DNA of 64,000 bases, taken from assembly GCA_016211105.1 (NCBI GenBank), contig JACQSX010000018.1, positions 1-64,000 on the forward strand, given 5' to 3'. Below the pieces are notes generated by a model that did no database searches, was not told where the DNA came from, and was given only the letters and a program-made list of their open reading frames with translations. The translations under genes and the position numbers were made by a program. Source of the DNA: Acidobacteriota bacterium. GTDB taxonomy: Bacteria > Acidobacteriota > UBA6911 > JACQSX01. Of this stretch, positions 15,698 to 21,181 are shown in pieces. Every line of letters starts with the position of its first letter. Position 1 is the first letter of the stretch.

Positions 15698-16861
15698 ATG
15701 CCGAGAGCGACAAAAGTACCCATCACGAAAGACGTCCTTCGTTGGGCGATTGACGAATCTGGTATTCCCTTGGCGAACCTTGCCGACAAAGTGCAAGTGT
15801 CTCAGGACGAATTGCAGCAGTGGATTGAAGGCACTGGTGTACCCACACTTTCGAAGTTTCGTCGTCTAGCATCCTTGCTTCATCGTCCTACTGCGCTATT
15901 TCTGCTTCCTGCCCCTCCTGCGGTCCAGCGACCCCATGTTCAATTTCGTCGCCCGACTGGGGGACAAGTACGACGCCCCAATCCCGCCGAACTGCGCGCA
16001 TTGCGGCAAGCAGCACGCATGCAACGTGTGCTCGCATGGGTTACGCACGAGCTAGCGATCGGGGTCAAGAATCTTCCCAAAATTCAATTGTCGACACGTC
16101 CCGAGGATGCCGCTGAGAGAGCTCGGATTTGGTGCAATATCTCGCGAATAGGAAAACTTGTGGAGGGTACTTCTTCACAGGCATTTGATGCTTGGCGCGA
16201 CATGGTCGAGAGCAAGGGGATCCTTGTCTATCTTGCCTCTCTGGGTGGGCAATCTTGCAAGGGTTTCTCCCTCTGGGATCAGAACGCTCCGATTGTCTGT
16301 GTAAATACGCATTGGCGGGAGGAGGCGAGGATTTTCACACTTCTCCACGAGCTTGGGCATCTCTTGACACGCACAAACTCCGCGTGCGTGGATGGGGAGA
16401 GACTGCCACGAACCGGTGGCGACCTTGAGGAACGATGGTGCGAGGAGTTCGCTGCTGCGGTATTGCTTCCACAAACTGAAGTTTTTGAGTTCCTTCGCAA
16501 CCTAATGGACTGGCAGCCAGGTCGGAGCATCACCAGTCTAGAAGATGCCCGCCTCCTTGCCCGGAAGTTCAACGCTAGCCTTCGGGCCGCGGTTCTGCGG
16601 CTAATCGAACTTGACGTGTCATCCTGGGACCTGTACGAGCAAATTCCGGCAACGTCTGACAATAAGACACCGGCTGTAGGTGGTCATGGTCGGACCCGAC
16701 GCCAGATCTGCGAGGACCAGTACGGTCGGCGTGTTGCACAGCTCTTTCACGCTGCGGTTCAACACGAACTGATCAGTCGTAACCAAGCTGTCGACTACTT
16801 GGACATTCCGGACGTTGAGTTCGACCACCTCGATATTGGTTCGGGCCAAACCGGAACGTAA
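15698..16861 (+). CDS. XRE-family HTH with ImmA/IrrE metallopeptidase domain
   Basis: 387 residues: helix-turn-helix at ~20-60 (PLANLADKVQVSQDELQQWIEG), then a zinc peptidase of the ImmA/IrrE family with HELGHLL (HExxH) and a downstream ERWCEEFAAAVLLP supplying the third ligand. Such proteins cleave phage or element repressors or act as regulators in toxin-antitoxin modules. It is followed after 3 bp by a PIN-like gene, a pairing seen in mobile DNA. The C-terminal ~70 residues (RRQICEDQYGRRVAQLF...) are conserved in this sub-family. Confidence 0.85.
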   Translation: MPRATKVPITKDVLRWAIDESGIPLANLADKVQVSQDELQQWIEGTGVPTLSKFRRLASLLHRPTALFLLPAPPAVQRPHVQFRRPTGGQVRRPNPAELRALRQAARMQRVLAWVTHELAIGVKNLPKIQLSTRPEDAAERARIWCNISRIGKLVEGTSSQAFDAWRDMVESKGILVYLASLGGQSCKGFSLWDQNAPIVCVNTHWREEARIFTLLHELGHLLTRTNSACVDGERLPRTGGDLEERWCEEFAAAVLLPQTEVFEFLRNLMDWQPGRSITSLEDARLLARKFNASLRAAVLRLIELDVSSWDLYEQIPATSDNKTPAVGGHGRTRRQICEDQYGRRVAQLFHAAVQHELISRNQAVDYLDIPDVEFDHLDIGSGQTGT

Positions 16862-16864
16862 AGG

Positions 16865-17362
16865 ATGGCCGTTGAACGCGCAGTTGCAGTCATCGATACG
16901 TCATCGATCATTGAGATCAGACGCAGTGTTCAGAACGCCCGCAAACAAGATGTCTTCGACGAGTTAGCTCGGCTCGCAGGTGCTGGCGAACTCTACTTTC
17001 CGAAAGAGGTTCTTAAAGAGCTTAAACGTGCAGCTGACCCAAGCAATCCAGACCAACAGTTTGCCTGGGCACGAAAGGTCGAGGCGTCAGCGACGAGTTT
17101 TCCCGTGCCGTTTGAGACAGTACGAGAAGTGCTTGCTGCGGTACCACGCGTGATTGATCCCGATAAACAGGGTGCAGACGAGGCTGACCCCTACATTCTC
17201 GCACTCGCAATAGAACTCCAGAAAGTTGGCAAGAAGGTTGTTGTCGTCACAGAAGAGACTAGGGAGACACCAACAAAGATGTCCCTCCGCACTGCTGCGG
17301 GCATTCTTGGCCTTCCCTCAATTCCGTTGGGTGCGTTCCTCGAATCAAGGAACATCGTATGA
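16865..17362 (+). CDS. PIN-like DUF4411 protein (putative toxin nuclease)
   Basis: 165 residues with a PIN-type first strand, VAVIDTSSIIEIRR, and a downstream acidic segment, GADEADPYILALAIEL, then VVVTEE. This matches the DUF4411 group of PIN-like proteins. PIN domains are Mg-dependent RNases, often VapC toxins. It starts 3 bp after the XRE-ImmA/IrrE gene, which probably acts as antitoxin or regulator. It ends in an ATGA overlap with a small ORF. Confidence 0.72.
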   Translation: MAVERAVAVIDTSSIIEIRRSVQNARKQDVFDELARLAGAGELYFPKEVLKELKRAADPSNPDQQFAWARKVEASATSFPVPFETVREVLAAVPRVIDPDKQGADEADPYILALAIELQKVGKKVVVVTEETRETPTKMSLRTAAGILGLPSIPLGAFLESRNIV

Positions 17363-20065: not shown

Positions 20066-21181
20066 TCAAGCGGGCAATGTTTGCCCACTCGGTGGGGCAG
20101 CTACGGTGAGAGAATGGCCATCCGATAGTCGAAGCGTGTCGCGAAGTCGCACAGGGGCCAAGATTTCAAGCTTGTCCTCGGGATAGTCTTTTACGTCAGG
20201 CACAATCACAGCCGCTGATATCCGTCCCTCCACATTGACAGGAAAACATCGGGCGGCACAATAGCCCGCTTCCGACTGCAGGAGAATACCTTGCCGTGAC
20301 TTCAGCCTCTCAAATGCGGCCCGATCGGCAAAAGATGCGAGACGTACGTTCAGGGTACCCGGATAGGGTAGAAAGCCTAACTGTGTCACAAGTTGGCGGC
20401 GCACCCACGAAAGCTCCGTAAACCCTGAGGCCGCCTTCACACCGCTGATCACCGTCCCCTGAATCCACTCTTCGGCCTCCAACAACGGGAATAGTTCCTC
20501 CAATGAACGGATGGCGGGAGAATAAATCTGAGAATTACTGCCATCCCGAGCGACCAGTACGGCGGCCATGCCAAGGCTCCGGGCGGCTTCCACATCTTCC
20601 CGATAATTGTCTCCCACGTGAATCGCTTCTGCTGCTGTTACTCCTGCCAGGCGCAGTGCTTTGTGAAAAAGAAACGGACTTGGTTTAACGTGTCCCTCAG
20701 CCTCAGAGGCTAAGATGAAGTCAAAATATTCACGAATCCCATGGTTTGCACACAGCTTTTCCAGACGGGGTTCCCAATTGGAAATGGCAGCGACAACATA
20801 GGCCCGCCGCTTCAAGCGGGCCAGAACTGAATGGGTTTCTGGATACTGGTGAAACACGCGAGTGCTGAGCCAAGATTCCCAAATGGCTTGACGACACGCT
20901 TCCAAGTCGCGAGTCACTCCCAATCGTGTCAGCAACCCGTGGATCATCTGGTCGCGCCAGGCGAACTCTCGCTCGGCTACAATCGTGTAATCCGGAAGGG
21001 CGCCTGCTGGAGCCGACCAGGCAGCCTCTCGCGCCGCTGCTAAAGCCTGGCTCATCGTCTCTACGCCGACATCATACCCATGCGCCGCCAGGATCTCACA
21101 ATAGACCGGCGGCAAGTCGGCTGTGTGCAGCAATGTCCCGCCCACGTCGAGAAAAACCGCCTTAAAGCGCCGCATCGTCAT
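20066..21181 (-). CDS. HAD phosphatase fused to CTP-dependent riboflavin kinase (DUF120)
   Basis: 371 residues in two parts. Residues ~7-235 are a HAD hydrolase: FLDVGGTLLH, ISNWEPRL, KPSPFLFHKAL, HVGDNYREDVEAA. The usual D-x-D acid/base residue is Gly here (DVG). Residues ~242-365 match the archaeal RibK family (GTVISG, LGFLPYPGTLNVRL, CFPVNV, ILAPVRLRDTLRLSDG), which makes FMN from riboflavin with CTP. Known bacteria use the unrelated RibF enzyme. The HAD part could supply a riboflavin-pathway phosphatase step or act on FMN. It stands alone with no riboflavin genes nearby. Confidence 0.82.
   Translation of the reverse strand: MTMRRFKAVFLDVGGTLLHTADLPPVYCEILAAHGYDVGVETMSQALAAAREAAWSAPAGALPDYTIVAEREFAWRDQMIHGLLTRLGVTRDLEACRQAIWESWLSTRVFHQYPETHSVLARLKRRAYVVAAISNWEPRLEKLCANHGIREYFDFILASEAEGHVKPSPFLFHKALRLAGVTAAEAIHVGDNYREDVEAARSLGMAAVLVARDGSNSQIYSPAIRSLEELFPLLEAEEWIQGTVISGVKAASGFTELSWVRRQLVTQLGFLPYPGTLNVRLASFADRAAFERLKSRQGILLQSEAGYCAARCFPVNVEGRISAAVIVPDVKDYPEDKLEILAPVRLRDTLRLSDGHSLTVAAPPSGQTLPA

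Follow-up and report, generated by a model that had tools for sequence, protein, structure and literature searches.

What would a bacterium that already has the standard riboflavin kinase RibF do with an archaeal-type, CTP-dependent kinase of the RibK family joined to a HAD phosphatase? The question is raised by a gene in the window, the 64,000-nucleotide stretch of Acidobacteriota DNA analysed here (genome G000). The gene (positions 20066–21181, on the minus strand, which the original prediction had left out) is a single open frame of 371 amino acids with an ATG start and a stop. Residues 6–204 (20570–21166, minus strand) form a HAD hydrolase domain, matching the Pfam profile PF00702 at 75.4 bits against a cutoff of 26.4. 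Residues 244–360 (20102–20452, minus strand) form a CTP-dependent riboflavin kinase domain (PF01982/DUF120), matching positions 1–119 of the 121 in the Pfam profile with a score of 94.1 bits (cutoff 25; E 7.8e-27). The profile search of the C-terminal part that had been suggested as a check is therefore significant, and the predicted fusion of HAD and RibK holds, with both profiles above cutoff in one frame; the motifs that had been quoted for the kinase half, GTVISG, PYPGTLNVRL, CFPVNV and ILAPVRLRDTLRLSDG, were all found as given.

Among solved structures, the kinase half comes closest to RibK MJ0056 (PDB IDs: 2p3m, 2vbs–2vbv; E 4e-9), with the riboflavin kinase 3cta as a further relative, and the nearest relative of the HAD half is human HDHD3 (PDB ID: 3k1z; E 7e-21). 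The best family match of the HAD half is likewise HDHD3/DREG-2 (TIGR02252), at 128 bits, though it stays below the cutoff of 155.2 and departs from that family in its motif I, DVGGT. The kinase half misses the NCBIfam equivalogs NF040694 (ribK_Meth; 59.9 bits of the required 168) and NF010762 (79.8 of 279). A single-sequence structure prediction of the protein gave a pLDDT of 39, too low for use.

The architecture with HAD at the N-terminus and RibK at the C-terminus is found in four further genomes of the same class (G014, G024, G026 and G035, the last at a contig end with its N-terminus missing). As four relatives have orthologous fusions, there is no need to invoke a frameshift or a chimeric assembly of two genes, the artefact that had been named as the prediction's possible undoing, and we rule it out. 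The HAD halves of these relatives are 41–46% identical to that of the window, compared with about 30–35% for the closest HADs of the class that stand alone, and the five sequences with an N-terminal HAD form one group in the RibK tree (support 96/86). Another genome, G037, has the reverse order, RibK followed by a HAD with the canonical DIDGT. A standard ribF was found in the window's genome (PF01687, E 5e-38) and, alongside RibK, in each of the six genomes of the class that have RibK, so that RibK is an extra, second kinase and not a replacement for RibF. The original remark that bacteria usually use RibF tells only part of the story, since this genome carries both.

Comparison of gene neighbourhoods showed no neighbour of the window gene to be conserved in G014 or G024. 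Elsewhere in the window, at 15698–17362 on the plus strand, adjacent frames resembling a helix-turn-helix/metallopeptidase protein and a PIN protein look by eye like a possible pair of the toxin–antitoxin type. Two divergent standalone RibKs from the same phylum as the window (L032:6601-7023 and L033:7109-7522, both minus strand) are not near UbiD, and each lies near a large gene that by eye is glycosidase-like.

Evidence on the role of such kinases came from more distant bacteria. Among plasmid sequences, the best match to the window kinase domain (44% identity) is a DUF120 protein without a fusion partner in Azoarcus sp. KH32C, which lies inside a phenylphosphate carboxylase operon in the order UbiD, UbiX, DUF120, NUDIX. 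A search of a phage collection gave no match. When the whole protein was scanned against genome contigs there was one irrelevant HAD match, and this was the entry point to a second phylum, for which a set of 399 genomes was reached via a contig titled Clostridiales; RibK is present in nine of them. In one (G682), UbiX and RibK are fused in one frame at two loci, L083:3576-4595 and L084:1898-2860 (both minus strand), the first confirmed by Pfam and NCBIfam and the second by translation, and a HAD and two UbiDs lie alongside the first. RibK, UbiX and UbiD stand in a row in G608, and in G522 RibK is followed by a PEP-utiliser, UbiD, a KdsC-like HAD and two further UbiDs. A PEP-utiliser is also near the RibK of G726. 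Two other genomes, G656 and G453, have a type 2 isopentenyl-diphosphate isomerase (IDI-2), UbiD and then a RibK::HAD fusion, and the RibK of G415 is fused to a histidine phosphatase (L085:1999-3051, plus strand). Overall, five of the nine RibK loci lie within 6 kb of a UbiD. The probability of this arising by chance is about 3e-6 with 6 UbiDs assumed per genome, and 4e-3 with 32 assumed in every one. G682 itself has 32 first-look UbiD candidates.

Phosphatases have been joined to RibK at least three separate times, since the HDHD3-like HAD is N-terminal, the PGP/PpaX-like HAD C-terminal and the histidine phosphatase N-terminal. In other bacteria (G522, G608, G682, G656, G453 and Azoarcus), kinases of this RibK family are fused to, or in operons with, UbiX or UbiD, whereas the window protein has no UbiX domain and does not adjoin ubiX. 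No UbiX or UbiD was found close to the window gene or its orthologues with an N-terminal HAD, and the ubiX neighbourhoods in the class held nothing informative.

The window's genome is nevertheless rich in UbiD, with 13 matches to PF01977 (for instance G000:C43, C22 and C20). Within the class, the six RibK genomes all have 9–15 UbiDs, compared to a median of 1 in the 32 others (Mann-Whitney p 6e-5, a value that ignores relatedness); UbiD-richer genomes that lack RibK are G003 (14), G016 (6) and G001 (4). A similar picture emerges in the second phylum, where seven of the nine genomes with RibK have five or more UbiDs against one of the 390 without (Fisher p 9e-13, again ignoring relatedness, with UbiD counts that are lower bounds in some genomes as at most seven candidates were scored per genome). 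The one RibK-free genome to reach this number is G399, with 5 UbiDs. At the other end are two second-phylum genomes with divergent RibKs and one UbiD each, none nearby (G587 and G745), and G211, where a partial RibK at the end of a contig occurs with no UbiD.

We consider it probable that the HAD::RibK protein is a two-domain flavin-cofactor supply enzyme, serving as a dedicated source of FMN for UbiX in a bacterium dependent on many UbiDs. In the UbiX reaction, reduced FMN and a dimethylallyl phosphate yield prFMN (PMC6541611). We infer that the kinase half, as a member of the bacterial RibK subfamily, most likely turns riboflavin and CTP into FMN beside the housekeeping RibF, and that this FMN is delivered to UbiX, where in its reduced form it would be prenylated to prFMN, the cofactor of UbiD. 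The HAD half would most likely hydrolyse a phosphate of the same pathway, with FMN or a spent flavin-5′-phosphate as the first choice, and the protein would thereby set the balance of riboflavin and FMN for UbiX. That FMN itself is the HAD substrate is a tentative suggestion by analogy, favoured because a HAD FMN hydrolase fused to a riboflavin kinase has a precedent in plants (PMC2972280, PMC9678776). The plant protein, AtFHy/RFK, likewise has an N-terminal HAD phosphatase and a C-terminal riboflavin kinase in one chain. The arrangement is a convergent one; the AtFHy/RFK kinase is of the RibF/flavokinase type, unrelated to RibK, and its HAD belongs to another branch than that of the window protein. 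The earlier guess that a phosphatase step might be coupled to FMN formation is, given this precedent, plausible, but it missed the best-supported context, that of prFMN, UbiX and UbiD. For the HAD half as the ArPP phosphatase of riboflavin synthesis, we found nothing more than a weak match to YigB, below cutoff (43 of 225 bits).

A rather unlikely alternative places the HAD half, and the other phosphatases joined to RibK, on the prenyl side of the UbiX reaction, either making DMAP from DMAPP or removing DMAP or the pyrophosphate product, so that both substrates of UbiX would be supplied or tuned. Several neighbours are consistent with this: IDI-2, which makes DMAPP, is a neighbour of both UbiD and RibK::HAD in G656 and G453, a NUDIX gene adjoins DUF120 and UbiX in Azoarcus, and for the C-terminal HAD of G656 the nearest family is the PpaX pyrophosphatase (110 bits, under the cutoff of 218), pyrophosphate being a possible substrate. 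The presence of IDI-2 is ambiguous, however, since this enzyme needs FMN too. Additionally, the UbiX proteins here have Q or H at the position of PaUbiX residue 181, and these residues go with the use of DMAPP (PMC6541611). A supply of DMAP is therefore not required, which weakens our initial idea of the HAD as a DMAP maker.

It is also unlikely that the protein serves as a second-line riboflavin kinase for general use, paired with an FMN hydrolase in the manner of the plant enzyme and without any special tie to prFMN, with the richness in UbiD reflecting a shared anaerobic or aromatic-degrading lifestyle. Consistent with such a role, the window gene lies outside any UbiD operon, its own tie to UbiD consisting solely of family membership and co-occurrence, and five genomes (G211, G587, G745, G232 and G253) have RibK with just 0–2 UbiD matches. 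What argues against it is the fusion of UbiX to RibK and the repeated operons with UbiX and UbiD in unrelated bacteria.

The residues of the window protein bear on its proposed role in FMN supply. The HAD half has the nucleophile D12, S134 of motif II, K166 of motif III and the acidic D191 and D196 of motif IV (motifs II–IV at 20594–20782, minus strand). Motif I, DVGGT (21134–21148, minus strand), lacks the general acid/base Asp that most HAD phosphatases have two residues after the nucleophile, with Gly14 in its place. The replacement of the second catalytic Asp by Gly, reported in the original prediction, is thus real, and it is a feature of the clade, as DVGGT is found in every N-terminal HAD fusion in which the N-terminus is present (G000, G014, G024 and G026). 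In the kinase half, T276 and N278 of PGTLN (20348–20362, minus strand) are the equivalents of T43 and N45 of MJ0056, which bind Mg. They are invariant across the aligned RibK domains, as is E339 (20165–20167, minus strand), the family glutamate ahead of an AP..LR stretch. In the window copy the glycine-rich CTP loop, GxGE(A/G), is degenerate, with SGVKAASGF (20420–20446, minus strand) at this place in an alignment with archaeal and bacterial RibKs; the relatives have SGKGEAAAF or SGTGEAAAF (G024, G026 and G035) or SGKREAADF (G014). By profile, then, the protein belongs to the RibK family, with one family feature missing in its own copy. Compared to MJ0056, it shares the full-length domain with the conserved GTxN and Glu, but it occurs in a bacterium with RibF, is fused to a HAD, has W for Y and C for G in the signatures, and has lost the T..H motif as well as an intact CTP loop.

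The loop and the missing acid/base Asp would also fit a window copy that is decaying towards a binding or regulatory protein. We regard this as quite unlikely, since the gene has an unbroken frame and keeps the key T, N and E of the kinase and the D, S, K and D of the HAD, and DVGGT, being conserved across the clade, is not recent decay. Alignment shows that the archaeal RT/KT..H and FG motifs are replaced in most bacterial RibK copies, and because of this and the degenerate loop of the window copy, activity or substrate may have shifted. A full change of acceptor in most bacteria, for instance to a CTP-dependent dimethylallyl alcohol kinase making DMAP for UbiX in genomes that already have RibF, is nonetheless very improbable, because GTxN, the Glu of the family and the AP..LR stretch have for the most part been conserved, T..H is kept by the RibKs of G522 and G608, both in UbiD/UbiX operons, and a UbiX with Q181 should prefer DMAPP.

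Within the titles and abstracts searched, a set outside which most subscription journals fall, we found no paper tying a riboflavin kinase to UbiX in the sense of FMN supply and none treating the FMN of UbiX as a supply problem, and DUF120 appeared in one unrelated paper. A paper on UbiD accessory proteins mentions numerous associated genes whose function is unknown (PMC10865409). The supply of FMN to UbiX may extend beyond the window protein: it is an even call whether UbiD-rich bacteria run a dedicated, RibF-independent prFMN line from a CTP-dependent, archaeal-type RibK to UbiX, the two being fused in some lineages, in which phosphatases of at least three origins tune the substrate levels and the window protein is one branch. 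UbiD enzymes require prFMN for the carboxylation and decarboxylation of aromatic compounds. If our reading is true, RibK and its fused phosphatases would be accessory genes able to limit or boost holo-UbiD, and the persistence of an archaeal-type kinase in bacteria that have RibF would be accounted for. It would also offer proteins that can be tested directly, the UbiX::RibK fusion foremost among them.
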